Of a stretch of 64,000 nucleotides of DNA, positions 3,561 through 63,264 are shown piece after piece. Under the pieces are notes generated by a model. That model made no database searches and was not told where the DNA came from. It worked only from the letters and a program-made list of their open reading frames with translations. This stretch comes from Methylotenera sp. (lineage in GTDB: Bacteria > Pseudomonadota > Gammaproteobacteria > Burkholderiales > Methylophilaceae), in assembly GCA_013141075.1 (NCBI GenBank), contig JABFRQ010000003.1:186001-250000 (forward strand), read 5' to 3'. The first letter of the stretch is position 1. Every line of letters starts with the position of its first letter. Made by a program: the position numbers and the translations under genes.

Positions 3561-3591
3561 ACTCTATTAAGCTTAGGAAAAATCTAACACT

Positions 3592-3730: not shown

Positions 3731-3752
3731 TCTCTCGACAGTTTAAATGCCA

Positions 3753-3992: not shown

Positions 3993-4040
3993 GTGTATAT
4001 TTCATCTAAAATGGTAGATGGGGTGCGGCAATTTGCCACA

Positions 4041-4069: not shown

Positions 4070-4072
4070 ACC

Positions 4073-4089: not shown

Positions 4090-4095
4090 TTTACC

Positions 4096-6339
4096 ATGCA
4101 GGAAATTAAACTTAAGAAGAATATACTTTCTAGCATTTTAACATCAGGCTTATTAGGAATAGTGGCTTTCAATACGGCTGCAGAGGAGGTCTCATTGCCA
4201 GCTATTGAAGTGCGTGCCGAAAAATTTCATATCAATGAAATGTCACGCCCGAACACCAGCGACACTGCTAGCATATTACAAGATCAACCCAGTTTAAGTT
4301 TTTATCGTGCTGGTGGCGTATCTAGCTTACCAGTCATTCATGGTTTAGCCGATGACCGCATTCGAATTAAAGTGGATGGCATGGATTTAATTTCAAGCTG
4401 TGCTAATCACATGAATCCGCCACTGTCATACATTGCACCAAATAATGTAGAAAATACACAAGTCTATGCAGGGATTAGCCCTGTTAGTCTAGGTGGTGAT
4501 AGTATTGCTGGGACTATATTGGTTAATTCGGCTACACCAGAGTTTGCAAAAGATGGGCAAGATTTATTGATAAAGGCAGAGATAGGTACGTTTTATCGTA
4601 GTAATAATGATGCGCGTGGCGTGAATCTATCAACCAGTGTTGCTAATGAAAAAGTGTATATGCGTTATACAGGTTCAACGGTTGAAGCGAATAATTACAC
4701 AGCTGGCGGTCATTTTAAGCCAGCTGGTTTAGCAACTATTAACGCTTCTAGTGATAGAACTAAAGATAGAGGTTATCTAGATAGTGATGAAGTGGGTTCT
4801 ACTTATTATAAAGCGCGCAACCACGCGTTGGCCTTTGGTTTGCAACATGAAAACCACTTGGTGGAATTTAAATTAGGTTTGCAAGATATCCCAAAACAAG
4901 GATTTGTGAATCAACGTATGGACATGACTGGCAACGAAGCAAAGCAATATAATTTAAGTTATAAAGGTCAATATGGCTGGGGTGCTTTAGAGGCACGTGC
5001 TTACCATGAAAACGTGCGCCACAACATGCAATTTGGCGATGATAAATTGTATTGGTATGGCGCGACTGGCACTGTTGCTGGAATGCCGATGGATACCGAA
5101 GGTAGAACGACTGGCTTAAATGTTAAGGGAGAATTTAAACTTACTGAGCGCGACACATTAAGTATAGGTGCAGAGTATCAGCGTTACCGTTTGGATGATT
5201 ACTGGCTTGCTTCACCACCCTCTATGATGATGGCACCCAATACTTTCTGGAACATTAACAATGGTCAACGTGACCGTTATGATGTTTTTGCAGAGTGGCA
5301 AGCAAAATGGAGTGAACAATGGTTATCTCAGCTAGGTTTGCGTAGTAGCACTGTAAAAATGGATACAGGCCGAGTGCAGGGCTATAACAATATGGGTGGC
5401 ATGATGGGCTATGGCAATCCAAATTTAGCAAATAGCATTCCAGGCGCATTTAACGTGGCTGACCGTTCTAAAACAGACAATAATATTGATGTCACAGCAT
5501 TAGCGCGCTATATGCCAAATGCAAGCCAAACCTACGAGCTGGGTTACGCGCTAAAGACACGCTCACCTAATGTGTATGAACGTTTTGCTTGGTCAAACAA
5601 CAATAGCATGGTCATGAATATGAACAACCTCTACGGTGACGGCAATGGTTATGTTGGAAATTTAAATCTAAAAGCAGAAAAAGCACATACGCTTAGTGTT
5701 ACTGCAAATTGGCATGATGCTACGCAAGAAAATTGGAGCTTTAAAGCCACGCCATATTTTACTTACGTGAGTGATTATATTGACGCGGTGACTTGTGCAA
5801 CGGTAGGTAAAGTGTGTGCGGCTCGCGGTGATGGTTTTGCCAATTTAAGTTTAGATAACCAATCCGCAAGGCTTTACGGCATTGATGTATCGGGGAAAAT
5901 GGCACTCGCCAGTGGTACAGGTTTGGGTAGCTTTAGCGCATTAGGCGCAGTTAATTACATGCGTGGTAAAAACAACACGACGGATGATGATTTGTACAAC
6001 ATCATGCCGCTCAATGCAAAATTCGCCCTTGAGCATCAACTAGGCAGTTGGACGAATACCATACAAGCCAAACTAGTGGAAAGCAAAGATAATGTACAAG
6101 AGGTACGAAAAGAGCTAAAAACAGCTGGCTTCGGCTTGCTTAATTTATACAGCAGCTACGATTGGAAACACGCACGTTTAGATTTTGCGGTAGAAAACGT
6201 TTTTGATAAATACTATGCAGACCCGCTAGGTGGTGCGTATCTCGGACAAGGCGCAACGATGGGAACGGGCGTTTTGCATAACTTAACGGTACCTGGCATG
6301 GGGCGTTCTGTAAACGTAAGTTTAACGCTTAAATATTAA
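4096..6339 (+). CDS. TonB-dependent copper receptor, OprC/NosA-like
   Basis: A 747-residue outer-membrane receptor: signal peptide (about 1-29), plug domain, then a 22-strand barrel ending in SVNVSLTLKY with a terminal aromatic. The plug carries SSCANHMNPP, giving C102-x3-M106, the CxxxM signature of the OprC copper site. The barrel loops are unusually methionine-rich (PPSMMMAPN, NNMGGMMGYG, SMVMNMNN). This supports import of copper or a copper complex for cuproenzymes rather than a siderophore. No TonB/ExbBD genes are nearby. Iron-siderophore or other metal uptake is the alternative. Confidence 0.85.
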   Translation: MQEIKLKKNILSSILTSGLLGIVAFNTAAEEVSLPAIEVRAEKFHINEMSRPNTSDTASILQDQPSLSFYRAGGVSSLPVIHGLADDRIRIKVDGMDLISSCANHMNPPLSYIAPNNVENTQVYAGISPVSLGGDSIAGTILVNSATPEFAKDGQDLLIKAEIGTFYRSNNDARGVNLSTSVANEKVYMRYTGSTVEANNYTAGGHFKPAGLATINASSDRTKDRGYLDSDEVGSTYYKARNHALAFGLQHENHLVEFKLGLQDIPKQGFVNQRMDMTGNEAKQYNLSYKGQYGWGALEARAYHENVRHNMQFGDDKLYWYGATGTVAGMPMDTEGRTTGLNVKGEFKLTERDTLSIGAEYQRYRLDDYWLASPPSMMMAPNTFWNINNGQRDRYDVFAEWQAKWSEQWLSQLGLRSSTVKMDTGRVQGYNNMGGMMGYGNPNLANSIPGAFNVADRSKTDNNIDVTALARYMPNASQTYELGYALKTRSPNVYERFAWSNNNSMVMNMNNLYGDGNGYVGNLNLKAEKAHTLSVTANWHDATQENWSFKATPYFTYVSDYIDAVTCATVGKVCAARGDGFANLSLDNQSARLYGIDVSGKMALASGTGLGSFSALGAVNYMRGKNNTTDDDLYNIMPLNAKFALEHQLGSWTNTIQAKLVESKDNVQEVRKELKTAGFGLLNLYSSYDWKHARLDFAVENVFDKYYADPLGGAYLGQGATMGTGVLHNLTVPGMGRSVNVSLTLKY

Positions 6340-6436
6340 TTGCGGTTAAGTTGGCATTTTTAGTTTGTAAGACTGCAATAAGGCTGAACTTTTAAAATTA
6401 AGGTTCAAAAGTAAGGTTTAATTCTAGTTAAAAAGT

Positions 6437-6465
6437 AAAAATGGGCAGATTTTTCTGCCCATTTT
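6437..6465. terminator. Bidirectional terminator between convergent genes
   Basis: AAAATGGGCAGA and TCTGCCCATTTT pair around a short T loop, with A/T runs on both sides. It lies between the TonB receptor (plus) and the protease gene (minus), so it can end both transcripts. Confidence 0.88.
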
Positions 6466-6487
6466 CACTTCAAGCTACTCAACAAAC

Positions 6488-7141
6488 TTAATATTTTTTA
6501 GTTAAGGTCAGTGCAATATCTTGCCGCTTCATATCCAGCCTATTTAACGCGCTCATGCCCATTAGCACGACCGATGGTGAGCCACCTTCAAGCACACTGC
6601 CTTCTACTTGATTCAGAGTAACCGCGCCAATTTTAAGGCTAGCAATCGTCACTCGATAGGCTGTTACCACGCCGTTGGCCGTGCCTATTTGAATAGGCTC
6701 GCCGCGTTTATAATCAATATTCGCGAATTTTGCATCGCCACTATTAAGCGCTACTGTAGTAGCCCCAGTATCCACCAAAAATTTAAGGGTTGCACCGTTA
6801 ATTTGGCAATCTGATAAAAAATGTCCTTCTCGGTTTGCATACAAAATCACGCTTGAGGCTGCAGCATTTGCGTTACCACCGCCCACTGAAGCAGCTTGCC
6901 CCATGCCAAGCTGCTTAGTTTTACCTTCAATTTGCAAGGTCGCCATTCTGCTATCGGCCGCAAGTAATTTAACGCCATCACTGGTTTGGCCTACGCTCAA
7001 TGTTTTTGGCTTGCCACCGTTAATGATTAGTACGGCTTTGCTGCTAAATAAGCCGACAATATTTACATTGGTATCGGCCAAGCAAGCGTTGGAAAATAAC
7101 AGGCTCGTCACTAATATTAGTGCGCTTCTCATGCTGTTCAT
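6488..7141 (-). CDS. Retropepsin-like aspartic protease (clan AA), exported
   Basis: A 217-residue protein with an N-terminal signal peptide ending near ANACLAD. The C-terminal domain carries the single-lobed aspartic protease motif FLVDTGATTVALNS and a downstream hydrophobic-hydrophobic-Gly region (VVLMGMSALNRL), matching the TIGR02281-type family. The N-terminal half (about 25-95) resembles a small beta domain found in such proteins. It probably works as a dimer in the periplasm; the substrate is unknown. Its ATG overlaps the stop of the upstream MFS gene by 4 bp, so the two are probably translationally coupled. Confidence 0.85.
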   Translation of the reverse strand: MNSMRSALILVTSLLFSNACLADTNVNIVGLFSSKAVLIINGGKPKTLSVGQTSDGVKLLAADSRMATLQIEGKTKQLGMGQAASVGGGNANAAASSVILYANREGHFLSDCQINGATLKFLVDTGATTVALNSGDAKFANIDYKRGEPIQIGTANGVVTAYRVTIASLKIGAVTLNQVEGSVLEGGSPSVVLMGMSALNRLDMKRQDIALTLTKKY

Positions 7142-8319
7142 CTAAACATCCCCTGTGTATTCTGCTTATTTATACTAAGTTTCAAGCCTAATCCTATCAC
7201 CAATAAACCCAATAGCGGGAATATCGCCGCGAGCATAAATGTGCGTTGCCCGCCTAAATATTGCAGCCCATAACCGCCTGCTACGCCGCCTATTGTGCCG
7301 CCGATGCCATACGCCACGCTATTATAAATTGCTTGGCCTTTAGCTTGATGGCGACCATTAAAAAATTGTGTAATCACTTCAACCGATGCCGCATGAAAGC
7401 TGCCAAACGTTGCCGCGTGCAAGCTTTGCGCAATGATGAGCAGCACTAGGTTGTCTACAGCAACGCCTATCATACTAAAGCGGAGGACAGCGAGCGCTAA
7501 ACTGATAAGTAAAATCGTTTTTAAGCTAAAACGTGCCATGATTTTTGGCATCAGCATAAAAATGCCAATTTCGCAGATAACGCCGACCGCCCACAGCAAG
7601 CCTATCATGCCTTTGCTGTAGCCACGGTCGCTTAAATAAATTGAATAAAAATTGTAGAGCACGCCATGCGCCGTGACCATGAGCGCGCAACCCACCAGCA
7701 ACGCAATCACGTTGGGCTGCTTAACTACCTGCCAAATAGAAAATGTATCATGCGCATGTGGGGCGATGGTGGCTTCTGGTAGTTTAAAAGCGAGCGCAAA
7801 TAAAGTAATTTGTACCGCCAACAAAAACCATAGCAATGTTTTAATGCCGTAAGCTTCTGTTAAAAAACCCAACATCACCGCCGCCACAATAAAGCCCAAC
7901 GAGCCCCACATGCGAATGCGGCTGTAATGGCCGTTGGTAGTAGCTAAATGCGCCAAAGTGAGCGATTCTGAAAGCGGCAAGGTAGAGCTGGTAAATAAAC
8001 TAAGCGAAGCCATCACCAAAAACAATGCCCAAAACCCATGCGCCCAAAACACCGCCACAAAGCCCATTAAACCTAATGCGGCGGTTAGCCTTATCCACTG
8101 CACGCGCTTGCCCGTATGGTCTGCCAACCAGCCCCAAAAATTAGGCGCAAAAATGCGGCTAATTTGGAATAAAGACATGAGAATGCCAATATCCGCAGGC
8201 GTGAAACTTTCAGAATTTAAATACAAACCCCAATATGGCACAAACGCACCAACAAAGAAGTAGTAAATAAAGTAAAAGCGGGATAGATTAAAGTGCAGTT
8301 TGTGGGTCAAGTGATGCAA
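7138..8319 (-). CDS. MFS transporter, phenylpropionate/HcaT-like (MFS_1_like)
   Basis: A 393-residue inner-membrane protein with twelve predicted hydrophobic segments. The N-terminal FYFIYYFFVGAFVPYWGLYL and the short loop motif WLADHTGKR after helix 2 fit the MFS_1_like branch that includes HcaT and nucleoside/oligosaccharide symporters. The substrate cannot be read from sequence. It is the first gene of a two-gene unit with the protease. Confidence 0.82.
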   Translation of the reverse strand: MHHLTHKLHFNLSRFYFIYYFFVGAFVPYWGLYLNSESFTPADIGILMSLFQISRIFAPNFWGWLADHTGKRVQWIRLTAALGLMGFVAVFWAHGFWALFLVMASLSLFTSSTLPLSESLTLAHLATTNGHYSRIRMWGSLGFIVAAVMLGFLTEAYGIKTLLWFLLAVQITLFALAFKLPEATIAPHAHDTFSIWQVVKQPNVIALLVGCALMVTAHGVLYNFYSIYLSDRGYSKGMIGLLWAVGVICEIGIFMLMPKIMARFSLKTILLISLALAVLRFSMIGVAVDNLVLLIIAQSLHAATFGSFHAASVEVITQFFNGRHQAKGQAIYNSVAYGIGGTIGGVAGGYGLQYLGGQRTFMLAAIFPLLGLLVIGLGLKLSINKQNTQGMFR

Positions 8320-8323
8320 TCAG

Positions 8324-8740
8324 TTAATCAATTTTGCATTTACATTGCGTGCAAATAGTGCTTTTTATAGGCTTCATCATCACGCCAATGTACAACAAAG
8401 CTAACGCTGCATTGGCTAGAAATGAGCTGTAAGACAAAGTTTGCCCTGTTTCTGCACAACCACATTTTGGACAAACTTCTGGGCTTAGGCTAAACGTTTC
8501 TACTAAAGGCTTTTCAAACTCACCTTTGTTAAAATCTGCCAACACTTGTTTGGCTTCACCAATTAAGGCACTTGGCACTTGCAAGCGAATATGGGCAAGC
8601 CCAACATTCAACAAGCTTTGTGCGTTAAAAAAATGTTCGCCTACCAAAAATACGGGAATGGCTTCACTTTCTAACAAGCCTTTGAAAATGTGCGCTTCAA
8701 GCGAGTTATCAAAAGTAGTAAGTGTGACCATATTGGGCAT
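8324..8740 (-). CDS. DUF2007 protein with zinc ribbon and a membrane segment
   Basis: A 138-residue protein. Residues about 1-70 match the DUF2007 fold (putative signal-transducing protein: TTFDNSLEAHIFKGLLESEGI-like start). Residues 93-98 CPKCGC and 131-136 CTQCKC form a split zinc ribbon around a hydrophobic stretch (LANAALALLYIGVMM). Function is unknown. It lies 2 bp downstream of aroC and 4 bp before the MFS gene, all on the minus strand. Confidence 0.75.
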   Translation of the reverse strand: MPNMVTLTTFDNSLEAHIFKGLLESEAIPVFLVGEHFFNAQSLLNVGLAHIRLQVPSALIGEAKQVLADFNKGEFEKPLVETFSLSPEVCPKCGCAETGQTLSYSSFLANAALALLYIGVMMKPIKSTICTQCKCKID

Positions 8741-8742
8741 GG

Positions 8743-9828
8743 TTAGAGTTTTGGCGTATTACACACCACATCCGCATTTTGCGCTCTATTTCGTAGCGCA
8801 TGATCCATCAACACCAGTGCCAACATCGCCTCGGCAATTGGCGTAGCGCGTACTCCTACGCACGGGTCGTGGCGGCCTGTGGTTTGCATAGTCACGGCGT
8901 TACCATTTTTATCAATCGAGCGACGTTCTTGCGGAATACTTGACGTGGGTTTGAGTGCAACATTCACTCGGATTTCTTGCCCCGTAGAAATGCCGCCTAA
9001 AATTCCGCCTGCATGGTTGGTGACAAAGCCTTGCGGCGTCATTTCATCTGAATGCACGCTGCCACGCTGCGAAATAGCAGCAAAACCTGCGCCAATTTCT
9101 ACGCCTTTTACTGCGTTAATGCTCATCATGGCATAGGCGATTTCAGCGTCTAGGCGGTCAAAAATTGGCTCACCCCAACCCACAGGCACGCCTTCTGCCA
9201 CCACGGTAATTTTTGCACCAACAGAATCGCGCTCGGCACGAACTTTATCTAAATATTCTTCTAATTGCGGTAACACTTTGGTGTTAGGTGAGAAAAATGG
9301 ATTTTCATTCACGCAATCCCAAGTTTCAAACGGAATTTCAATTTCACCTAACTGGCTCATGTAGCCACGAATCGTTACCCCAAAACGTTCAAGTAACCAT
9401 TTTTTAGCGATAGCGCCAGCGGCCACGCGTACAGCAGTTTCACGTGCGCTTGAACGTCCGCCACCACGATAATCGCGTATGCCATATTTTTGCGCATAAG
9501 TGTAATCTGCATGGCCTGGGCGAAAGGTATCCATGATTTTTGAATAATCTTGACTGCGTTGGTCGGTATTGCGGATTAGTAAACCAATCGGCGCACCCGT
9601 GGTTTTTCCCTCAAATACGCCAGATAAAATTTCTACCATATCGGCTTCTTGGCGTTGTGTAACATGGCGCGAAGTGCCAGGTTTGCGGCGGTCTAAATCA
9701 ATTTGTAAATCTTCTGCACACAGCGCCAAGCCTGGCGGACAGCCATCTACCACGCCGCCTATCGCCGCGCCATGTGATTCGCCAAACGAAGTAAATGTAA
9801 ATAAAGTGCCGATTGTATTACCTGACAT
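8743..9828 (-). CDS. aroC: Chorismate synthase
   Basis: Makes chorismate from 5-enolpyruvylshikimate 3-phosphate with reduced FMN, the last shikimate-pathway step. At 361 residues it has normal length. The three signatures are present: [16 protein letters not shown] near the N terminus, the arginine-rich [21 protein letters not shown] at about 125-145, and [17 protein letters not shown] near the C terminus. It heads the minus-strand run aroC-DUF2007-MFS-protease. Confidence 0.97.
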
Positions 9829-9867
9829 AATGCGTATCTCAATAAAATTTAGTTAATTTTAACATAC

Positions 9868-10590
9868 TCAAGATTTTAGGCCTTGAATCCACTGCATATA
9901 AACTTGGTTTGCCACTTTATTGAGAAAAAATACATGTAAAGGCAAAGTTTGTTGCATGTCATCTGCCTGCTGAACGGCAATACTACTGGCAGATTCTTTT
10001 AGTTCGTCAGCACCTGCTTCACACCATTTTTGCACCATGCCAATGGTCATTTCAATGTGCGTTTGAAACGCCAAATGCTTGCCAATTGACCACGCTTGGT
10101 TTTGGCAATACGGGCTGGCAAGCAAGTGAATAGCGCCTGCTGGCAAACTGAACGTTTCGCCGTGCCAGTGAAAGGCGTTAAATAGTTCAATCTCGCCAAA
10201 CCAATGTTTTGCCACTGCATTTTGGCTAACTGTCACTTTACCCCAGCCGATTTCTTTAACCGCATTTTTGCTCACAACGCCACCGAGTGCTTTACTAATA
10301 AGCTGCCCACCCAAGCAATGGCCGAGTAATGGAATATCATTAGCATAAGCTTCACGAATTAAGTCTAATATTGGTGCAATCCAAGGCAAATCATCATTCA
10401 CACTCATGGGACCACCCATCAATACCATGCCGCTGTGAGCCAATATCGACGCGGGTGCTGGCTTACCTTCATCTACCTCGTGTAATTGCCATGGTATATT
10501 TTGTGCGGTTAAAAAGTCGCCCAAATAGCCCGCGCCTTCGTGTGCAATGAAGCGAAATATAATGACTGGTTTCATGTTGCCTGAGTTCAT
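9868..10590 (-). CDS. Class I glutamine amidotransferase-like protein
   Basis: A 240-residue cytoplasmic protein of the GATase1 fold (GMP synthase glutaminase-like, stand-alone). The nucleophile elbow is [17 protein letters not shown], the catalytic His lies in [10 protein letters not shown] and the acidic partner in THIEMT. No synthetase domain is attached, so it may hydrolyse glutamine or a gamma-glutamyl compound; the true substrate is unknown. Its start overlaps the rluE stop by 4 bp. Confidence 0.82.
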
Positions 10591-11123
10591 ATTGAAAGCA
10601 CCTTGTAAGTGCCAGCTTCCAAATTATCAATCGTGTAATTGCCTATGGCATAGCGAATTAACCGCAAAGTAGGAAAGCCAATTTTAGCCGTCATGCGCCG
10701 CACTTGGCGGTTTTTACCCTCAGAAATTTTAATTTCTAGCCAACTGGTCGGAATCGCCTTACGCTCCCGTATTGGCGGGTCTCGCGGCCATAAATTTTCA
10801 GGTTCGCTCATAAGCCGCGCTTGGGCAGGTTTTGCTACAAAATCAGTTAAATCCAACCCTAATCTCAGTGGTTCTAAATCCGCATCGCAAGGCGCGCCTT
10901 CTACCTGCACCCAATAAGTTTTCAATTCTTTATGTTTTGGGTCACTTAAACGGTGTTGCAACAGGCCATCATCGGTTAAAATGAGCAAGCCCTCGCTATC
11001 TGTGTCTAATCGCCCTGCGGCGTACACATTTGGCGTATCGATATAGGCTTTTAACGTAGCATGCTTCTCGTGAGCAGTGAACTGGCACACTACGTTAAAG
11101 GGTTTATTGAATAAAATTATCAT
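10587..11123 (-). CDS. rluE: 23S rRNA pseudouridine synthase, RluE family
   Basis: A 178-residue protein of the RsuA/RluE group lacking an S4 domain, as RluE does. The catalytic aspartate is in [27 protein letters not shown] at the N terminus and the basic [22 protein letters not shown] motif region near the C terminus fit the family. RluE of E. coli modifies U2457 of 23S rRNA. The start codon is only 13 bp from the divergent icd start. Confidence 0.9.
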
Positions 11124-54857: not shown

Positions 54858-54934
54858 GGTGATGTAGCTCAGCTGGTTAGAGCACAGGATTCATAATCCT
54901 GGGGTCGAGGGTTCAAGTCCCTCTTTCACCACCA
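54858..54934 (+). tRNA. tRNA-Met (CAU), target of the integrated element
   Basis: Cloverleaf with D-arm GCTCAGCTGGTTAGAGC, anticodon CAT in CAGGATTCATAATCCTG, T-arm GAGGGTTCAAGTCCCTC and encoded CCA. The acceptor stem has a T-T mismatch at pair 6-67. Elongator Met is favoured; Ile with lysidine is the alternative. The 3' half is duplicated at 63185-63231. Confidence 0.9.
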
Positions 54935-54935
54935 A
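54889..54935 (+). repeat. attL: 47-bp direct repeat in the tRNA-Met 3' half
   Basis: Runs from the anticodon loop (ATTCATAATCC) through the CCA end plus one base. It is identical to 63185-63231. Flanking bases differ on both sides, so the core is exactly delimited. Confidence 0.95.
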
Positions 54936-54941
54936 TAAAGA

Positions 54942-54972
54942 CGCGGCATCCCAAAGGGTGCCGCGTTTTTTA
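54942..54972 (+). terminator. Terminator after tRNA-Met, supplied by the element
   Basis: CGCGGCA-CCC and GGG-TGCCGCG pair around AAA, then TTTTTT. It lies inside the element, so insertion replaced the host terminator, which is now at 63235. Confidence 0.85.
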
Positions 54973-54989
54973 TTTTTATAAACACAAAT

Positions 54990-55018
54990 ATTTATAGCGT
55001 ATTTATAGCAAATTTATA
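54990..55018. repeat. Left subterminal repeat (TTTATAGC units), probable integrase arm sites
   Basis: A 29-bp sequence identical to 63034-63062, made of TTTATAGCG, TTTATAGCA and TTTATA units about 11 bp apart. It lies 55 bp inside attL. Confidence 0.75.
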
Positions 55019-55090
55019 TCTTCGAACCTGCCCCCAATAAAAAATCCCCGACTAAGCGGGGAATGTAATATGTAAATTTAAGAAATTAGC

Positions 55091-55993
55091 TTACTGCTCA
55101 TAAATAGACCTTACTATTATTCGCTTTGGTATAAGTTGATTTTTCTTTGCAGAGAAATCTCTTTCTAAAGTAACGTCTGCAACGATATGAGCCTTACCAT
55201 AAAGACTCGCGGGTTCTAAGGTAGGATCAAGCTCAATCCTCACTCTATCTGTAATGCCCTCTATAGAGCCTGCCCAGCCTGTTTTCTTACTATCCAAATC
55301 AGTAGCTCTTAGTTTTACTGATACACCATTTAAATCTTCAAATCTATTGTTTTTTCTAGGTATGAATTTTTTAGGTACTTGCCGAACAGTCTCTACAGGT
55401 ATACTAGCCTTCTCATCACCTTCCCCAAAAGTAACATAAGATTTATTATCATTTTTTAGTGGCTCAAAAAAGTTTAAAGTCTGTTTAGCAACTTCATTCT
55501 TATCTTGAATATGTTTCTTTACTGCGGCATTCACCTCAGCTTTTAACTCCTCACTTATGGTGTTTGGAGCGAAGTTGATAATCATAGCGTTAGGGCTATT
55601 TTCTATGTGTGACGTGGGCTGCGCTTGAGGGACAGTATTATTTTTAGTGAGGTACTCAAAACCAACCGTCAGAGCACCACCTAAAATTGCACCCAGTATT
55701 ATATTCCTCATATTAGTTTGGTGTAGCCACCTTAAAAAGTCGTCATATTTTTGTTGATCGCCGAAAATTACTTTAATTACAAACTCTTCGACTAAACTTC
55801 CAGTTTCGATTTTTTGAACGTATATTTGATGTCCAAGAATCTCAACGTTTGATATTTCACTAATTATATTGTCTGCATTTTGCAGTAATATTTCGAGAGA
55901 CTTTAGAGCGTCGATTACATCATTTAGTGGAACTGGTTCTTCTGTTTCATATTTGATTTTATACTTTAAAAGCACTTCATAGCTATTATTCAC
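55091..55993 (-). CDS. Unknown membrane-anchored protein, element cargo
   Basis: A 300-residue protein starting GTG with GGGAG 7 nt upstream. Residues 1-95 form a soluble domain (YEVLLKYKIKYETEEPVPLNDVI), residues about 97-115 a Gly/Ala-rich helix (NIILGAILGGALTVGFEYL), and the remainder (120-300) is soluble, predicted mixed alpha/beta. It is AT-rich and lies next to an XRE regulator on the same strand. I do not recognise the family; a membrane effector of phage defence is a guess from context only. Confidence 0.7.
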   Translation of the reverse strand: MNNSYEVLLKYKIKYETEEPVPLNDVIDALKSLEILLQNADNIISEISNVEILGHQIYVQKIETGSLVEEFVIKVIFGDQQKYDDFLRWLHQTNMRNIILGAILGGALTVGFEYLTKNNTVPQAQPTSHIENSPNAMIINFAPNTISEELKAEVNAAVKKHIQDKNEVAKQTLNFFEPLKNDNKSYVTFGEGDEKASIPVETVRQVPKKFIPRKNNRFEDLNGVSVKLRATDLDSKKTGWAGSIEGITDRVRIELDPTLEPASLYGKAHIVADVTLERDFSAKKNQLIPKRIIVRSIYEQ

Positions 55994-56154
55994 TCAATGC
56001 TCCCTGATTTTTTAAGGTAGACGATTATTATGCCTTATAACTGTACTAAGTAAAATCGCATACCCTTAATAATCTTATTATTGCTTTCGGATAGTAGATT
56101 AAGTCCACTGTCAGTATGATTGCAAATTAACTGTCCTAATATTGTAGTTAAAAT

Positions 56155-56415
56155 TTACTTATCCGTTTGAATATTTAAATACAGTCTTTCTGTTTCCAAT
56201 AGTAAATCAGCAGCAGACACTTTCAACGCTTTACCTAAGCCTATAAGCGTCCTTAAAGAAGGCTGCCTAATTCCTCGCTCAATGCGCGAAACAAAAGTTC
56301 TATCCACGCCAGCTAAAAAAGCCAGCTCCTCTTGAGATATGCCAAACTCGGCTCTACGCCTACGCAAAATATCGCCAAAAATTCTTTCTAATTCTAAATT
56401 GTCCGCATTTTCCAT
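56155..56415 (-). CDS. XRE-family helix-turn-helix regulator
   Basis: An 86-residue cytoplasmic DNA-binding protein; HTH_3 domain at about 14-70 with ISQEELAFLAGVDRTFVSRIERG as recognition unit region. It is divergent to the secreted-protein gene and upstream of the membrane protein gene, so it may regulate one or both. A short N-terminal acidic tail precedes the domain. Confidence 0.9.
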   Translation of the reverse strand: MENADNLELERIFGDILRRRRAEFGISQEELAFLAGVDRTFVSRIERGIRQPSLRTLIGLGKALKVSAADLLLETERLYLNIQTDK

Positions 56416-56496
56416 GCAGTCAATATCAATTTAATGTAGCATATAGTCCACGCACTATAGGCACGTCTCAATTTCAGATTCTAATCGGGATTCATT

Positions 56497-57099
56497 ATGT
56501 ATTTATCTAAATGTAAGTTTTTGGTATTAGCTTTTGCGTTATTTAATAATTACGCCTATGCAAGCTCTGTGAAATTAGATTTTAAAGGCCTTGTTCTCGG
56601 TGAACTAGCATCCACAGAACAAATTGAAAATACTTTAAACGCAGGGTGTAAATCACAAATAAATGAGAGCTGCAATGATTCAGAATTAACGATATATGAA
56701 AGCACTAAAATCAAATGTGGTGAAGGAGGCAATGGTGGAAAAGTTTGCAACGGCTTTACCACCATCGCAGGTGAACGGGCAGAAGCAAACATTGTAATCG
56801 GCTCAAGTGGAAAATTACAAAGAGTTTGGTTGAGAACTTCATCATATAGCTTTGACAGTATTTCAGATGAGCTAATCAAAAAGTTTGGGAAACCTTCGCG
56901 TGTTAAAAATTCTAATGTTCAGAATAGATTTGGTGCCACATATCCGCAGAAAGAGCTTGTATGGAAAGGTGCTAACAGTGCAACTCTAAATTTTGAGAAA
57001 TATGGTAGTAAACTAGATGAGTCATCGCTGTACTTTAGCACCAAAGAAGACTTAGAAATGTTACTAAATAAATCAAAAACGGTTAAAAACGATTTATAA
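56497..57099 (+). CDS. Exported protein, unknown function, element cargo
   Basis: A 200-residue protein with a signal peptide (about 1-22, ending AYA-SS). Four cysteines lie between about 50 and 85 (AGCKS, ESCND, IKCGE, KVCNG), then GKPSRVKNSNVQNRFGATYPQKELVW, a pattern seen in uncharacterised exported proteins. It is the only plus-strand gene of the element. Role unknown. Confidence 0.75.
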   Translation: MYLSKCKFLVLAFALFNNYAYASSVKLDFKGLVLGELASTEQIENTLNAGCKSQINESCNDSELTIYESTKIKCGEGGNGGKVCNGFTTIAGERAEANIVIGSSGKLQRVWLRTSSYSFDSISDELIKKFGKPSRVKNSNVQNRFGATYPQKELVWKGANSATLNFEKYGSKLDESSLYFSTKEDLEMLLNKSKTVKNDL

Positions 57100-57100
57100 G

Positions 57101-57274
57101 CTACTTCGCTAGAAATTCCCGTGTGTCTTGCAGTAATCTCTCTTGAGTTGCCATGGCTTTCGCTTCCCACAAGTCAATTGGCAATAGTGGCGGGAAGTTA
57201 TTGGTTTGGCGATTGATTGAGGATTGCTCAATACGCTGCAATCTACGCAAAATCGTGGATGAAACTTTGTACAA
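57101..57274 (-). CDS. Small ORF (57 aa) overlapping the 119-aa gene
   Basis: The frame opens at TTG 57274, right after an in-frame stop, and ends at TAG 57101. It codes for ILRRLQRIEQSSINRQ followed by PPLLPIDLWEAKAMATQER, amphipathic and well formed. The overlap with the upstream gene suggests coupling; it could instead be the remnant of a longer gene. It converges with the exported protein gene 1 bp away. Confidence 0.4.
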   Translation of the reverse strand: MYKVSSTILRRLQRIEQSSINRQTNNFPPLLPIDLWEAKAMATQERLLQDTREFLAK

Positions 57275-57602
57275 TTAAATCGTCCTCAAAAACTTTATTA
57301 AAGTAATCATCTATTTTTGAATTAACTATTTCAAACTCGAGCGGATGTTTTGACCGACAGGTAGGTGTCATTACTGCCCAGTTTTGGGCATGAGGTATCC
57401 TTCCTGTTATCTCGTGCCAAAAAGACTTGAAAGCCCCAAAAGTTAATATCGCGGATTTAATTGATGCATCAAGGTTGCCTTCGTCAAAAAGGAAATATCT
57501 AGTGTCATACTCCAAGATGATTGCGTGGTCTTCTTCTTTGTGGGCTTCAAGGATTAAAAACCTGTTTTCCACATCACATATAGCATTGGTTAAATGATTC
57601 AT
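57243..57602 (-). CDS. Hypothetical protein (119 aa) of the element
   Basis: An acidic protein without signal or membrane segment: VENRFLILEAHKEEDHAIIL, then FKSFWHEITGRIPHAQNWAV. Its ATG overlaps the stop of the DUF5681 gene by 4 bp, so it is expressed with it. No family is recognised. Confidence 0.65.
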   Translation of the reverse strand: MNHLTNAICDVENRFLILEAHKEEDHAIILEYDTRYFLFDEGNLDASIKSAILTFGAFKSFWHEITGRIPHAQNWAVMTPTCRSKHPLEFEIVNSKIDDYFNKVFEDDLIVQSFIHDFA

Positions 57603-58060
57603 GCTTTTCCCTCCAATAATGCTAATCGCTGCTCAAATTCTGATATTTGCTTGATGCCATAAAGCATAGAGATTGCTTCAATAATTTGCTTACCCATATC
57701 AGGCGACACTTCACCGTTTGCGATTGCTTGCAGCACAGATTCTGCTTGCTCGGTAACACCTGCTTTAGCGTCAAAGTCAAATTGCACTTTTTCACCTTGT
57801 GCTTTGAGGGCAGGTGCGACACGCGATAACACAATGCCAGCAGCTTGCACGTCACCAGCCAAAGCAGCATCAATCACCACACGCACTACAGCATTAGCAT
57901 CATCGAGTAGGGCTTGCGTAACTTTAGTTCTTGCATCGACAATCCCCTTTGGACGACCAGACTTGTTAGGGCTAGGCATTCCACGTACCCATTGCGGATT
58001 GCCTTTTTGTTTTGGAGTTGATGCATCTAGTTTTAACTCATCCATTTTTGATCTCATCAT
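57599..58060 (-). CDS. DUF5681 domain protein
   Basis: A 153-residue protein. The N-terminal part KGNPQWVRGMPSPNKSGRPKG matches the DUF5681 signature (GNP..GRPKG), followed by a helical domain (VVRVVIDAALAGDVQAAGIVL) and a C-terminal helix ending EFEQRLALLEGKA. DUF5681 proteins are common in phages and islands, often near packaging genes; a small-terminase-like role is possible but unproven. It lies 15 bp after the 232-aa gene. Confidence 0.8.
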   Translation of the reverse strand: MMRSKMDELKLDASTPKQKGNPQWVRGMPSPNKSGRPKGIVDARTKVTQALLDDANAVVRVVIDAALAGDVQAAGIVLSRVAPALKAQGEKVQFDFDAKAGVTEQAESVLQAIANGEVSPDMGKQIIEAISMLYGIKQISEFEQRLALLEGKA

Positions 58061-58075
58061 ATGTTTATCAATGCT

Positions 58076-58774
58076 CTACGCTTTTAGCGCATCTAGGGCG
58101 TGTTTATTTACTTTCTGCAATTCAAAAATACGGTTTCTAGGTACGCCAACTGCCTTTTCCATTTCAGAGAACAACAGACCACCGCGAGTTTCCAACATTT
58201 CTTTAGCCCTTCGCAACGCTGCCAAAACTTTGGCAGTCTGGGGTGAGGATTGCTCATGCAGCATACGTGTTCTTAGCTGACGCTCTTTTTCAGACATGCC
58301 TGATAGAAAAGATGGCGCACCTAAAATGGCTCTTAATGTAGCCACATCATGACTAGCAAAAGCATCATCAATGAATTTCAATCTATCTTCTACAGATAGT
58401 CCTTTAACATGCGCGCGAATTTCTGCGCTGATATTGAAGCGTTCCGCATCTGCGCTTATTGGTGAGTTAAGCTGACCATCTAGCGCATCTATGCTAGTCG
58501 TCATGCTTGCAACAACTGAGTCGAATTTCTTGCACACGCGTGTTAAGTGCTTTTCTGCTAACTCGCCAACAAGCATGTGAACATTTTCTTTCGTCCACGC
58601 CTGATTTTTAGCAGCTAAATCTTTAGCAACGTACACCTTGCTAATCGAATCATATGCTTCTGAAAATGCCTCCACCGCAGCATTCAGATAAGGTAAAACT
58701 TCTGTGTCACCGTCTGCAATTTTTTCAATATTCTTGGGATGCAAAGTTGGTGTTATGTGTGCATTTATGTCCAT
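58076..58774 (-). CDS. Hypothetical helical protein (232 aa) of the element
   Basis: Soluble, mostly alpha-helical. The C-terminal segment (LFSEMEKAVGVPRNRIFELQKVNKHALDALKA) looks like a helix-turn-helix unit, so DNA binding is possible. It begins just beside the iteron cluster, which would suit a replication accessory. No family recognised. Confidence 0.65.
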   Translation of the reverse strand: MDINAHITPTLHPKNIEKIADGDTEVLPYLNAAVEAFSEAYDSISKVYVAKDLAAKNQAWTKENVHMLVGELAEKHLTRVCKKFDSVVASMTTSIDALDGQLNSPISADAERFNISAEIRAHVKGLSVEDRLKFIDDAFASHDVATLRAILGAPSFLSGMSEKERQLRTRMLHEQSSPQTAKVLAALRRAKEMLETRGGLLFSEMEKAVGVPRNRIFELQKVNKHALDALKA

Positions 58775-58860
58775 GTGTTTCTCCTAATAGCTGATATAGG
58801 GCTTAATTTTAGGAAAGTAACAATTAAAAAGCTTGATAAAAACACACAAAATCAAAGTGA

Positions 58861-59010
58861 TATGTAAGTGGTAACTTATTATTTCAAATACTGTGGCCGT
58901 AAATACGTAAGTAAGTGAGTTGCTATATACAAATACTTACTTACGCCTAGGGCGTGTAAGTACGTAAGTAAGTGATAATGTGTTTTTAACTTACTTACGC
59001 CACTTACGTA
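58861..59010. repeat. Iteron cluster, probable replication origin of the element
   Basis: TACGTAAGTAAGTGA occurs at 58904-58918 and 58961-58975; ACTTACTTACG occurs inverted at 58935-58945 and 58989-58999; shorter variants are at 58863-58869 and 59002-59010. The direct and inverted spacing next to a primase gene fits an origin. The 239-bp gap 58775-59013 holds no gene. Confidence 0.75.
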
Positions 59011-59013
59011 ACA

Positions 59014-61041
59014 TCAAACCACACGCCACCTAAAAGCTTTATTGCTGGACGAATTTCTATACTCTTCGCGTTCAATCAAACTGCTACGCTCAGCATTCAT
59101 TAACAAACTGTTTAGTTTTTTACTCGTTAATCCTTTAGGGTAATTTACATCATCATTAAGCATATTGAATGCGCGATTTTTTGCATTAAATATTGGCGAG
59201 ATATAATCACCTCGCTTGTAGTATTCATAAATCAGACCTAACAAGCATGTGGTTAATTCTTCATCATTTGCGTTGTCAGATAAGCTATCCACAATGCAGG
59301 AGCTAATTTCATTTCCATCTTCATCTCTGCCATATACGACACCTTTCAATGCAAAATTGGCAGCCCGCCCACTTATGCCATCTTTATTCTTTGTGACCTT
59401 CCAAGCTCTGCTGCCGTCATTGTCAGATACTTCAATTGCAGTATCTAAAGCACCATTTAACCCTGACCAGCCACGCAACCCCCTAGTTTGGTCTTTACCA
59501 GTGTGGTGAACTATCAGCACACATCCACCTAATTTTTCTTGAATGGCAATAATATGGTTAATCAAATTACCCATATCCTTGCTAGAGTTTTCATCAATAC
59601 TTGGCGCACTAGCAGCCAATGTGTCAATACACAAAACCCCGTCATCCACCCCTGCATCTTTTATGAGAGTGACAATATTTTCGCAATCTGAACTTTCAAG
59701 TAAGTTGATAGGATACTCAATAAAACTAATGCCACAACTGCCGCCTTTAAAATCTCGATACGCTTTAACTCGTTGCGATGTACCAGCTTTACCTTCTAAT
59801 GTTAAATACACTACGGGACAAGGACGCACTGTGTAGCCAAACCAACTTTTGCCACTCGCTATTGCACCTAGCATATCTAAAACCAAAAATGACTTTCCTG
59901 AACCTGGTGCCCCGTAGATAGCTGCAAAACCCTCTTGAGGCAAAATGCCGTTTATTCTCCAACGCATAGGTGGTCTATTTGCAATTTCATCCTCGCTTAT
60001 TAGTCTTAATTTATCTAATGCTTTAGATGTTCTAGTGCTTGAATACGACTTCTTAAGAAAAGCGTTTGCTAGCAGATTGAACGCCATTTCTTTACCATGC
60101 TGGATTTGTTTAGCATCATTTATTAAATGTTGATTCGCTTCTTCAAGCGTTCGTTTTGCATAATCAGGGCGTGCCGCCTTATCGCGTTTGCCTAACGCTG
60201 ATAGTCTAAAAGTTTGCCAACATTGGCTTGGCGAATCACATTGCGGCAACAAAAGCTTGACCAAAGCCAAGTCTGCTTCCGACTGCGATGGATACCTTCC
60301 TTCCCAGTCTCCGTTAAATAACTTTCCAAGTTCACCCGAATCTTCAGTGGCACGTGACGCAAGTCCCCAGTTTGGTGAACTATCATTTTCCAGACTGATT
60401 TGTTCGTTATTATTTGATGGAATTTCAGCAACTAACTGATTGAGTAAAAGCTGACCTTGGGATATAGCTTTATTTTTCACCACATTTCCCGTACAAACAA
60501 TAAATCGCTTTTGTGAGTAAATCTCTACACCATCACGTTTCTTGCCTTTACCAATTTTTCCGCGTAGCCATATGTGATAGCCTTTGTCGCCTTGTGAACG
60601 TTCGGTATAACTATCAGAAGCATCAATAATCTTGTCAAATTGTTCTATGTGTTCATCTGGTGTATTATCTTTTACGTCTAAATCTATGCAGGTAAACGGG
60701 TCATCTTTAGTCAGCACATAGCCAATATGTAAACCTTTAGCTGCGGCAGCTTTGCAAACACTATCAAAGTCTGACCATGTGGCAGGGTCAGTGCTGCTTG
60801 CTGGTTTATAACTTGGTGTTAAGGGGCGTTTGTCTGCCCCTGCCACACACCACTGCTTACGCTCGCGCATTTCTGCGGGTATGTTTGCCCATAGTTGTTT
60901 GCTGTCGGCTGGGGCTTGGTTTATATACTGGTCGCCATGTTGGGGTTGGCTACTTTCAATATCACCTGTAATCGCTGGTAAATAACCCCCATTATCAAAC
61001 ATGCCACGATTAGTTTCTGTTAAATTAGTGTTGCTGCTCAT
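59014..61041 (-). CDS. Primase-polymerase / RepA-type ATPase replication protein
   Basis: A 675-residue protein. The N-terminal part (about 50-190) is primase-polymerase-like: ERKQWCVAG, the metal-binding CIDLDVKD (D120, D122), KGYHIWLRG and GVEIYSQKRFIVCTG. A linker precedes an AAA_25/RepA-type ATPase with Walker A GAPGSGKS (377-384), Walker B VLCIDTLAA (D473) and VHHTGKD. It probably primes and unwinds at the iterons nearby. AGGAG lies upstream of its ATG. Confidence 0.85.
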   Translation of the reverse strand: MSSNTNLTETNRGMFDNGGYLPAITGDIESSQPQHGDQYINQAPADSKQLWANIPAEMRERKQWCVAGADKRPLTPSYKPASSTDPATWSDFDSVCKAAAAKGLHIGYVLTKDDPFTCIDLDVKDNTPDEHIEQFDKIIDASDSYTERSQGDKGYHIWLRGKIGKGKKRDGVEIYSQKRFIVCTGNVVKNKAISQGQLLLNQLVAEIPSNNNEQISLENDSSPNWGLASRATEDSGELGKLFNGDWEGRYPSQSEADLALVKLLLPQCDSPSQCWQTFRLSALGKRDKAARPDYAKRTLEEANQHLINDAKQIQHGKEMAFNLLANAFLKKSYSSTRTSKALDKLRLISEDEIANRPPMRWRINGILPQEGFAAIYGAPGSGKSFLVLDMLGAIASGKSWFGYTVRPCPVVYLTLEGKAGTSQRVKAYRDFKGGSCGISFIEYPINLLESSDCENIVTLIKDAGVDDGVLCIDTLAASAPSIDENSSKDMGNLINHIIAIQEKLGGCVLIVHHTGKDQTRGLRGWSGLNGALDTAIEVSDNDGSRAWKVTKNKDGISGRAANFALKGVVYGRDEDGNEISSCIVDSLSDNANDEELTTCLLGLIYEYYKRGDYISPIFNAKNRAFNMLNDDVNYPKGLTSKKLNSLLMNAERSSLIEREEYRNSSSNKAFRWRVV

Positions 61042-61054
61042 TGCTTTACTCCTG

Positions 61055-61083
61055 CCCCAGTTCGCCCAAACTGGGGTTTTTCT
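61055..61083 (+). terminator. Hairpin in the primase leader; terminator on the plus strand
   Basis: CCCCAGTT (61055-61062) pairs with AACTGGGG (61069-61076), followed by TTTTTCTT on the plus strand, where no gene ends. On the minus strand it lies just before the primase Shine-Dalgarno site, without a T-run. Confidence 0.6.
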
Positions 61084-61185
61084 TTATGCGGCTGACAATA
61101 TGCTTGAATGCCCGCGTGACGCGCAATTTTTCATTATTATTTCAATCCGTTAGATACTGGCTTTACAGTCTTGGGACTAAGTAGG

Positions 61186-61407
61186 TCAAGCAGCCGCTAG
61201 CTGAGAAGCTGCTGTTTGATGCTTATTTTTATCTAACCATTCCTGCACGTCTTTGGGGTCATAGCGGACTGTACCATTGGGCATTTTGACGTGTTTTGGC
61301 AGGTCATGGCCTTGGCAACGCAAGCGTTCAACGGTATTAGTTTTTAAGCCTATTAGGCTCGCAAGGTCTTTAGTGCTGAGAAGAGGGGTAAGTGTCGAAG
61401 TAGTCAT
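61186..61407 (-). CDS. AlpA-like helix-turn-helix regulator / excisionase
   Basis: A 73-residue protein: LLSTKDLASLIGLKTNTVERLRC is an excisionase-type (HTH_17) domain, and KMPNGTVRYDPKDVQEWLDKN the wing. AlpA-type proteins activate integrase or replication genes of P4-like elements and PICIs. It lies between integrase and primase, as expected. Confidence 0.88.
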   Translation of the reverse strand: MTTSTLTPLLSTKDLASLIGLKTNTVERLRCQGHDLPKHVKMPNGTVRYDPKDVQEWLDKNKHQTAASQLAAA

Positions 61408-61509
61408 TTCAATATCCTTTAGTTACTCACCGCAGAACATCAAAATGTATTGGATGGGTCAGCGGCGATAAAAATTAAATAAATTTTTACCGTCACTCCC
61501 CATGGAGCC

Positions 61510-61583
61510 ACCGAAAGTGTATTTTGACTCAAACTTCACTAAGCCATGCTTAGTAAGTCAAAACAGATAACGATAATTTCGGT
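61510..61583. ncRNA. 74-nt nested palindrome, candidate structured RNA or operator
   Basis: Three nested helices: ACCGAAA/TTTCGGT (61510-61516 with 61577-61583), TTTTGACT/AGTCAAAA (61522-61529 with 61556-61563) and ACTAAGC/GCTTAGT (61538-61544 with 61548-61554), with a CAT loop. It lies in the 266-bp spacer between alpA and integrase, which holds no gene. Strand of transcription unknown. Confidence 0.5.
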
Positions 61584-61673
61584 GCATCGATAATTTAAAT
61601 ATAGCAAATTAAAAATTGAAATACAACATAAAAACGCTGATATAAAACAAAAAATAAGATAATAAAAATCAGG

Positions 61674-63014
61674 CTAGCCAAACCTGAGAATATTTTTCCC
61701 TTGCAAAGTAGCCTCGGCAATTTTGACTTGTTTAACTATAAACTTTGCCACAGCTTCGCTAGCACCTGCCAGAGCTTTTGGATCAGGATTGTTGCTGTAG
61801 CTCATTCCATGAACATCACTTGCCATATGATTGAGTAATTGCCTGCGTTCGTCATCACTGACTTTTTGCTGCTTTGCAATATCATCGTGACTACGCCTAA
61901 GGTCATGAAGTGAAAGGGAAATTTCCGAAACTTCACTCACCACCCCCATTGTGGCGCGAGCATCTGAAATATGCGGTAATTTTTTGCCGAAGCTTGGGAA
62001 CACATAAATTTCATCTGCTTTTAAGATTGCCCTGCGCTGCTCCAAAAGGTCTTTTAGCAAGCTATTTATTGGCAGTCTGATTTCATTATGGTTCTTAACC
62101 ACATCACCACGTAATGTGAAGTAACCTTTTTCTAAATTTACATCTGTCCATTTCAAACTGCCAGCCTCCATCCTACGGCAGCCCGTTAGCAAAAGAAATT
62201 GCACATAATCAACGCTAGTTCTATCGTTGATATTTGCATTCACTAGACGGCGCTTTTGTAAAGCTAGCCAGACTGCACCAATCTTATCTAATGGAATACG
62301 GCTTGTTCTCGCTTTCTCAGGATTTGGCTTTCTTATTTTGAACATGCGCGATACTGGGTTTGTCACAAAGATTAAAGGCTCACCTTCTTCATTGGTAAAC
62401 ATCTCTCTTGCATGGTTGATTAGCGCCCTCAGGTTCACAAAACATTGTGTGGCTTGACTGGCAGCGCCACGATTAGTTATTTGCTCATAACGGTCTAGGC
62501 ACTTCTCTCTAGTAATGCTTGCAATTGGTTTATCTGCCCAGTCACCAAGGTTATTTTCCACATGGTGTTTTAGGTCGCGCTTTGTGGTGTCACGAAGTTC
62601 GCCATGTTTGGTTCGTTTATTGATTAGGTAATGCTGCATGACTTCGCGCAAGGTGATAGTTTTAGCCTCACTGTCTGCCGCCTTACGCTTACGTTCAATT
62701 TCTGTTTCTTTAGCTTTAATTACAGGGTCAACACCTGCCAGCATTTCTGCTTTTATCTGTACGGCTTTTGCCCTTGCTTGGTCAACCCGATACGGGTCAT
62801 TGTGCCTGCCGATACTGATAAGGCGTTCTTGCTTAGAACCTTTAACTCTAAACTGAATAAAGTAAGTGCGCGTTTTTCCATTCGGGCTAACTCGAAGTCC
62901 GAAGCCCTTAGTTTCACTATCCCAAATAGTGGTCACAAGCCCCTCGGGATAGTTTCGCTCGGCTATCGTATTGGTGATTTTTACCTGTTTAATGACATTG
63001 CTATTTTGTGCCAT
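61674..63014 (-). CDS. int: Tyrosine recombinase integrase, P4 type
   Basis: Integrates and excises the element at tRNA-Met. The 446 residues contain an N-terminal arm-binding DUF4102 domain (about 15-100, TKGFGLRVSPNGKTRTYF), a core-binding domain, and the catalytic domain with TGCRRMEAGSLKW (Arg 280/281), K307, HDLRR (H370, R373), LLNHMAS (H396) and the nucleophile Y406 in HGMSYSN. All catalytic residues are present, so it may be active. It reads away from attR. Confidence 0.95.
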   Translation of the reverse strand: MAQNSNVIKQVKITNTIAERNYPEGLVTTIWDSETKGFGLRVSPNGKTRTYFIQFRVKGSKQERLISIGRHNDPYRVDQARAKAVQIKAEMLAGVDPVIKAKETEIERKRKAADSEAKTITLREVMQHYLINKRTKHGELRDTTKRDLKHHVENNLGDWADKPIASITREKCLDRYEQITNRGAASQATQCFVNLRALINHAREMFTNEEGEPLIFVTNPVSRMFKIRKPNPEKARTSRIPLDKIGAVWLALQKRRLVNANINDRTSVDYVQFLLLTGCRRMEAGSLKWTDVNLEKGYFTLRGDVVKNHNEIRLPINSLLKDLLEQRRAILKADEIYVFPSFGKKLPHISDARATMGVVSEVSEISLSLHDLRRSHDDIAKQQKVSDDERRQLLNHMASDVHGMSYSNNPDPKALAGASEAVAKFIVKQVKIAEATLQGKNILRFG

Positions 63015-63033
63015 GTGAATTTCCTCACTAAAA

Positions 63034-63062
63034 ATTTATAGCGTATTTATAGCAAATTTATA
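63034..63062. repeat. Right subterminal repeat (TTTATAGC units), probable integrase arm sites
   Basis: Identical over 29 bp to 54990-55018, followed by a further TTTATAGCA unit. It sits 20 bp upstream of the integrase start, so integrase binding could also repress its own gene. Confidence 0.75.
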
Positions 63063-63184
63063 GCATTTATTAAAATCTAAAGCAAGGAAAATAAAATGGG
63101 GAATGTTCGTAAGTTATTGATATATTGATGTTTTATAAAGGAATTACAAGGAAATTAAAACTAAATAAAGCTTATTCATAACTT

Positions 63185-63231
63185 ATTCATAATCCTGGGG
63201 TCGAGGGTTCAAGTCCCTCTTTCACCACCAA
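63185..63231 (+). repeat. attR: 47-bp direct repeat of the tRNA-Met 3' half
   Basis: Exact copy of 54889-54935. It lacks the 5' half of the tRNA, so it is not a functional tRNA gene. It marks the right end of the element. Confidence 0.95.
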
Positions 63232-63234
63232 ATA

Positions 63235-63264
63235 AAAAGCCACGCCTTCGGGTGTGGCTTTTTT
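63235..63264 (+). terminator. Original host terminator of tRNA-Met
   Basis: AAAAGCCACGCC and GGTGTGGCTTTT pair (one G-U) around a TTCG tetraloop, with a T-run. It was separated from the tRNA by the insertion. Confidence 0.88.

Follow-up and report, generated by a model that had tools for sequence, protein, structure and literature searches.

The 64,000-nucleotide stretch of DNA analysed here, called the window, comes from a Methylotenera sp. genome (GCA_013141075.1, contig JABFRQ010000003.1, positions 186,001 to 250,000) and contains a compact integrated element at 54889-63231, inserted at a tRNA-Met gene. This element is probably a satellite resembling the phage-inducible chromosomal islands (PICIs), one that would be packaged by its own small terminase subunit (TerS) together with the large terminase subunit (TerL) of a helper phage. 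There is good reason to regard it as a satellite of some phage; that packaging proceeds through its DUF5681 protein acting as TerS is also likely, with somewhat less assurance. From its gene content the element is probably able to copy itself, and since it combines this capacity with a packaging-guide-like gene and no recognised shell gene of its own, it most likely travels in the particles of another virus. A sequence-only reading had proposed a satellite of P4-like or PICI type in a methylotroph-like host. The satellite part of that proposal is supported, but its strongest evidence, a TerS-like gene, had been overlooked, and mobilisation by a phage is something that we infer.

The DUF5681 gene and its proposed link to packaging

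The TerS-like gene lies at 57599-58060 on the minus strand and encodes a 153-amino-acid (aa) protein that passes the Pfam cut-off for DUF5681 (31.5 against 27.5 bits). It is an orphan: TerL, portal, relaxase and coupling protein find no match within the element. All ten genes of the element were scanned against PHROGs and nine against Pfam, PADLOC and NCBIfam (the 57-aa gene was omitted), and no virion or conjugation family exceeded its cut-off, as the sequence-only reading had stated; the only remarks to add are the TerS-like gene itself and a sub-threshold LAPAL match, discussed below.

A tblastn search with the 153-aa protein returned 126 phage records, all below 60% identity. In the two annotated phages examined, Bas77 and seszw, a DUF5681 gene precedes TerL, with one 52-aa open reading frame (ORF) between them in Bas77, and in another genome of the genus (G038) it stands just before TerL. 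A search of IMG/VR with a sibling profile gave at least 96 relatives, of which 80 loci were kept, near-duplicates included. Among the matches listed, iterated profiles placed a TerL ORF in 74 of the 80 loci, and in 64 of them TerL started between -150 and +1000 bp from the end of the DUF5681 gene; a direct search with eight TerL queries found TerL so placed in 40 of the 80, again among the matches listed. As a control, other ORFs drawn at random within these contigs, not all of them real genes, showed such adjacency in 1192 of 15600 draws (7.6%). The 153-aa protein alone had no confirmed match in viral contigs.

Within the element, the DUF5681 gene belongs to a conserved operon and is kept under strong constraint, with a ratio of nonsynonymous to synonymous substitution rates (dN/dS) of 0.05 against a sister element in genome G039. 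The same operon, on the minus strand, includes genes for a 232-aa helical protein (58076-58774), a 119-aa protein overlapping the DUF5681 gene by 4 bp (57243-57602; dN/dS 0.29) and, as its last member, a 57-aa protein with a TTG start (57101-57274; dN/dS 0.15). Among 52 genus genomes, the 232-aa protein has a single, distant relative outside the window and G039, encoded on G017:C15 (25% identity over 124 residues; 23.7 bits, the best of 500 shuffles reaching 6.5), and the gene of this relative has a TerS-like neighbour on one side (phrog_309, E 0.0003) and TerL on the other (phrog_2, E 6e-30). No relatives of the 232-aa protein were found in phages, plasmids or viral contigs, and none of the G017 protein in viral contigs or phages; a low-confidence single-sequence structure model of the 232-aa protein (mean predicted local distance difference test, pLDDT, 46.7) was set aside. 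The G017 contig (L104; 8,152 bp) bears an integrase gene, an AlpA-like gene and primase-like pieces recognised by eye, together with TerS, the 233-aa gene and TerL, after which it stops. These genes fall within 8 kb, and the contig belongs to a compact prophage or else to a satellite that encodes a terminase of its own.

Integration site, candidate origin and sister element

The element is bounded by two attachment (att) repeats on the plus strand, at 54889-54935 and 63185-63231, which are identical at 47 of 47 bp, in line with the exact repeats noted earlier; the element that they bound measures 8,296 bp. The integration target is the 3' end of a tRNA-Met gene (anticodon cat; 54858-54934, plus strand) called by ARAGORN. 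When compared with its own genome, the tRNA region gives seven matches, of which, besides the tRNA itself, only the right end of the element is near-identical; the others show 73-86% identity. The left end of the element rebuilds the 3' part of tRNA-Met and supplies its own terminator-like hairpin with a T run (54937-54970, plus strand), probably a replacement terminator, and a similar hairpin occurs at the same place in G039. The displaced chromosomal terminator lies at 63234-63263 (plus strand), and its counterpart is found directly 3' of the tRNA in an empty site of genome G008. Inside the ends are TTTATAGC repeats, two on the left (54991-55009) and three on the right (63035-63064), both on the plus strand, and repeats similar to the left pair are present in the G039 sister. 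The iterons mentioned earlier comprise two kinds of repeat: these, which are probably integrase arm sites, and a separate CGTAAGTAAG array, described below.

The right-hand chromosomal neighbour is hsdM, followed by a Fic protein gene; further genes resembling hsdS, hsdR and recN were recognised only by eye. Empty sites, proposed earlier as a check, are present in G008 (L074) and G002 (L072), where tRNA-Met is followed by the terminator and then by hsdM, the gene that adjoins the element on its right; in G025 an hsdM-like ORF begins about 105 bp past the tRNA 3' end. These loci were located with the left neighbour, YchF, which matched all 52 genus genomes, a few of them as a fragment or another GTPase; 30 YchF loci were kept, and the tRNA 3' end is visible in 26, including the window's own. 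The remaining loci carry varied other sequence after the tRNA (by eye), and a second integrase family, that of a tandem neighbour in G039, occurs in eight of 20 longer downstream regions. The tRNA-Met site is an integration hotspot. The att site of a PICI is described as one that prophages never occupy; eight TerL queries matched none of these 20 regions, a search of low sensitivity in which five regions were shorter than 10 kb and two lacked the tRNA end. At loci L053-L081, the short repeats next to att just after tRNA-Met differ from locus to locus (for example GGCAACATATAGGCAACA in L056) and are probably arm sites of other integrases. Elements of 7.5-8.9 kb occupy the same tRNA-Met in G036 (L102) and G050 (L103), at about 1879-9387 and 1969-10896 of the respective reverse complements. 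With an integrase at 34%, they were rejected as kin and are unrelated; the Rep of G036 matches REP_ORF2-G2P, of filamentous-phage type, and both are possible filamentous phage satellites.

The core genes of the element lie on the minus strand and bear out the earlier predictions of a P4-type integrase, an AlpA-like regulator and a primase/ATPase. They encode a 446-aa tyrosine integrase with PF13356 (Arm-DNA-bind_3) and PF00589 (61674-63014), a 73-aa AlpA-like regulator or excisionase of the helix-turn-helix (HTH) family HTH_17 (61186-61407) and a 675-aa replication protein (Rep; 59014-61041) joining a phage-primase-like N-terminal half to an AAA_25 ATPase. No relative of Rep was confirmed in genome contigs or viral contigs. 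On the 3' side of rep, at 58893-59013, lies a candidate replication origin, in which four CGTAAGTAAG iterons of alternating orientation occupy 58906-58999. No other copies occur in the window, and none of 1000 dinucleotide shuffles of the intergenic sequence reached four copies of any 10-mer. Judged by its repeats, the array is likely a replication origin; both these and its position fit the PICI-type origin criterion, and two iteron sets around an AT-rich stretch are not clearly resolved in it.

Genome G039 holds a sister element of 8.1 kb in the same tRNA-Met and with the same gene order, which provides the related int-alpA-primase set that the sequence-only reading had suggested looking for. 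Its integrase is 96% identical to that of the window's element, its DUF5681 protein 98% and its 232-aa protein 90%. The seven shared proteins other than Rep range from 72 to 98% identity, with dN/dS of 0.05-0.29, whereas Rep is only 26% identical. At the DNA level, both ends, int and alpA align in blocks of 86-95% identity, as do the start of rep (about 46 codons), the HTH gene and the operon of the 232-aa, DUF5681, 119-aa and 57-aa genes. The differing slots are the phrog_4506 gene, the 200-aa gene, the short int-alpA gap and a block of about 2 kb at 58893-60902, which contains most of rep and the complete iteron array and is flanked by DNA 86-88% identical. The array of G039 is built from AGTTGCA, with eight copies in 238 bp and no others in the 20-kb locus. 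None of 1000 mononucleotide shuffles of the shorter stretch reached eight copies of any 7-mer; in a stricter test of the whole intergenic stretch, the top 8-mer was matched by 22 of 500 dinucleotide shuffles, which is not clear-cut. Given the divergence of Rep against the other proteins and the distinct arrays, the replicase and its repeat array differ together, and we infer that they may have been exchanged between the sisters as a working unit.

No structural or conjugation gene was recognised in the ORF list within the att sites of the sister, whose cargo genes lay outside the family-library scans. Together with the empty sites, this means that neither of the two conditions under which the earlier reading would have been refuted applies. 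A second element, encoding a separate integrase and a type IV coupling protein, follows the sister in tandem; at 85% completeness and 6% contamination of the G039 genome, it should be read with care. This neighbour lies outside the att sites of the sister and was set aside as conjugation evidence for the window's element.

Related elements and known satellite systems

Across the order, the DUF5681 profile A1 matched 26 of 399 genomes at 28 places, the window's own included, and 20 of the other 27 were read. Five of these contexts are orphans enclosed in direct repeats 18-45 bp long, with sizes of 9.6 kb (L134), 5.5 kb (L140), 6.8 kb (L142), 6.5 kb (L151) and 7.1 kb (L152); they come from four genomes of two families, two of them from G272. 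All five carry an integrase, and in four the repeats overlap a called tRNA, none being called at L134. A primase- or helicase-type protein is encoded in L134, L142 and L151 and a DUF3987 protein in L152; in L140 no replication-type protein was recognised. No TerL was found beside these elements in a search of 21 genomes with two TerL families. A PHROGs scan of ten of the remaining ORFs of L134, L140, L142 and L152 (L151 was outside it) detected a piece of a head-morphogenesis gene in L142 (phrog_324, E 2e-20). The DUF5681 match is partial in L151 and L152, and in L151 it is on the opposite strand from rep and int. The presence of a phage packaging gene, once accompanied by a head gene, in small repeat-bounded elements is the strongest comparative support for the satellite interpretation.

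Two further contexts, L135 and L150, are orphans beside an integrase and a tRNA for which a second repeat was not found. L133, L139 and L141 end too early to classify, and L136, L137, L138 and L146-L149 were left unassigned. Three contexts are TerL-adjacent (L143, L144 and L145, L143 through 45% identity to L144). In these, TerL comes directly after DUF5681 and inspection by eye showed neither portal nor capsid gene beyond it; they are perhaps small terminase-bearing elements.

It is an even question whether an unnamed lineage of small, mostly tRNA-integrated satellites extends across this betaproteobacterial order, methylotrophs included. Such a lineage would be characterised by a shared integrase, an exchangeable rep-ori cassette and an orphan DUF5681 small terminase redirecting helper packaging, and its cassettes might be swapped to escape copy-control or helper interference. 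If the satellite interpretation of the window's element is right, an integrase-adjacent DUF5681 gene without TerL would be a simple satellite marker for environmental genomes, and the two sister elements would constitute a natural swap experiment on replication-origin specificity. Gram-negative PICIs are reported chiefly in Enterobacteriaceae and Pasteurellaceae (PMC6092414). The open-licence literature searched yielded nothing joining phage satellites with Methylophilaceae, or with Burkholderiales, integrase and primase. One paper reportedly treats genomic islands of Methylophilaceae. In the same literature, DUF5681 appeared in one paper, which assigns it no function (PMC8954984).

Gram-negative PICIs such as EcCICFT073 and its kin have their origin at the 3' side of rep, some carry terS, and about 12-15 kb is used as a search criterion (PMC6092414). 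The element shares with them int, alpA, pri-rep and an origin in one direction, in a conserved order that is the same in G039. It also resembles them in the lack of structural or lytic genes recognised over cut-off, in its cargo genes and in a TerS-like gene comparable to the terS of some. It differs in size (8,296 bp, and 8.1 kb in the sister), in the AAA_25 helicase half, in the DUF5681 family of its TerS-like gene, in the absence of a recognised capsid gene and of any cos site noticed (no search aimed at cos was made) and in an att site that other element types use as well. Phage-dependent induction and packaging are traits expected of PICIs. It is filed as PICI-like rather than as a PICI because its size falls outside the search criterion and induction is beyond the reach of sequence analysis.

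The phage-inducible chromosomal minimalist islands (PICMIs) of Vibrionaceae are likewise small, with an integrase, a regulator, a replication gene and no capsid-remodelling gene recognised; they differ in lying by fis and, for PICMI115, in lacking terS (PMC10803314), while the window's element occupies tRNA-Met and has a TerS-like gene. A P4-type integrase domain, an AlpA-like regulator and a primase-helicase are shared with P4-like satellites. In the latter, psu, sid and delta are helper-control genes, and the helicase half of P4 differs from AAA_25. Library scans gave no match named psu, sid or delta, the presence of models for all three in the libraries being unchecked. The int-alpA-primase order proposed earlier stands, and P4 is probably not the closest kin. 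Finally, plasmids of Citrobacter (8.6 kb) and Enterobacter kobei resemble the element in unit size, a tyrosine integrase and a DUF5681-like gene without annotated TerL. They differ in having genes for a major capsid protein and for tail assembly, in their plasmid form and in a protein only 28-29% identical. The E. kobei plasmid (L340; NZ_CP110875.1, 34,300 bp) appears to consist of about four head-to-tail units of 8.58 kb, each with major capsid, tail assembly and DUF5681-like genes, as judged from annotated gene spacing (best self-lag 8,581).

Alternative explanations, host and accessory genes

Under the preferred explanation, AlpA or a helper signal would switch on excision, and Rep would replicate the excised circle from the iteron array at the 3' end of its own gene. 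The DUF5681 protein, acting as a small terminase, would then bind element DNA and hand it over to a helper, a tailed phage that would contribute the large terminase and the proheads, after which the DNA would enter a new host and integrate at tRNA-Met.

Several observations weigh against this explanation. Most viral-contig matches span only the N-terminal half of the DUF5681 family. The structure model is helical with a long C-terminal helix (pLDDT 79.7; predicted template-modelling score, pTM, 0.41) and matches no solved TerS, and no PDB entry reached E 0.001; BFVD gave one unnamed match at the E 0.001 level, with named DUF5681 proteins from E 0.02 upward, and the family profile against sequences of solved structures gave nothing credible (best E 0.13). 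The proposed TerS function thus derives from position and family, not fold. A DUF5681 protein is also listed, with two peptides, in the structural proteome of purified Salmonella phage particles (PMC8954984), an unexpected place for a small terminase. The 300-aa protein shows a sub-threshold match to the NCBIfam model LAPAL, 'putative phage structural protein' (23.8 bits, cut-off 60). The element is rare, an integrase more than 90% identical occurring in two of 187 family genomes, its own included, and its tRNA-Met site is also taken by other element types, one with a conjugation coupling protein. There is no pac site or capsid-size gene to point to in the element and no second DUF5681 gene in its genome. 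Nor was a helper identified: the own-genome prophages found with two TerL families number two, both Mu-like.

Part of this evidence would suit a satellite that is packaged in the manner of PICMIs, either from a cos/pac-like site or as a concatemer by headful filling, and whose DUF5681 protein serves in DNA binding, in the virion or in regulation. The model without a TerS match and the particle proteome point in that direction, as does PICMI115, which lacks a terS homologue (PMC10803314). The repeated tight adjacency to TerL in viral loci, among the matches listed, and the retention of the gene without TerL in bounded elements argue the other way, and this alternative, which overlaps with the preferred explanation so that the odds need not sum to one, is rather unlikely. 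Distinctly unlikely, too, is an integrative mobilizable element, able to excise and replicate but reaching new cells through conjugation genes that a co-resident element supplies. The tandem neighbour of the G039 sister would fit such transfer, but relaxase and mobilization families gave no match over cut-off, the HTH protein covers only the HTH part of the MobT model (24 bits against 600), and the TerS-like gene of the conserved operon is strongly constrained.

A self-replicating integrative plasmid that lives on its cargo and moves only by chance transduction or transformation would account for the rep gene and the probable origin. All six plasmid records with relatives of the 153-aa protein are also typed as non-mobilizable, and a 15.6-kb Waddlia plasmid has integrases and a primase with no annotated virion gene. 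This is nevertheless improbable: capsid, tail or baseplate genes are annotated on three of these records, those of Shigella (13.3 kb), Citrobacter (8.6 kb) and E. kobei (34.3 kb), so the three look phage-linked. Least credible is a decaying prophage remnant in which early and terminase-adjacent genes are left. Its gene relatives do sit in phage replication and packaging regions, but exact att sites, purifying selection, a compact operon, the exchanged rep-ori block, the sister and siblings of similar layout speak against it.

The other genes of the element lie towards its left end. An 86-aa HTH_3 repressor-like protein (56155-56415, minus strand; dN/dS 0.21) is followed by the 300-aa phrog_4506 cargo protein (55091-55993, minus strand), which is missing from the sister. 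E. coli phage 1H12 (L338) likewise has a phrog_4506 homologue immediately behind its repressor gene; in Pseudomonas phage PseuP_222 (L339) the homologue lies elsewhere. The slot after the repressor gene is the place of lysogeny-expressed exclusion genes, such as lambda rex, and the two genes may form a repressor and a lysogeny-expressed accessory pair, perhaps excluding other phages. A second cargo slot encodes a 200-aa protein with a signal-peptide-like start, noted by eye (56497-57099, plus strand), and is filled by two different genes in G039.

In line with the methylotroph-like host suggested earlier, the host belongs to the Methylophilaceae, judging from YchF, whose best named matches are a Methylophilaceae metagenome-assembled genome (94%) and Methylophilus aquaticus (92%). 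Two of its genes exceed the curated cut-off for hexulose-phosphate synthase, which two of 14 control genomes also pass. The Mu-like prophages of this genome (L153, L155, L156), on contigs C4 (Portal_Mu) and C8 (Mu transposase), were rejected as helper, no link to the element being found. A Cas9 gene lies some kb beyond the C8 prophage (L156:3867-6008).

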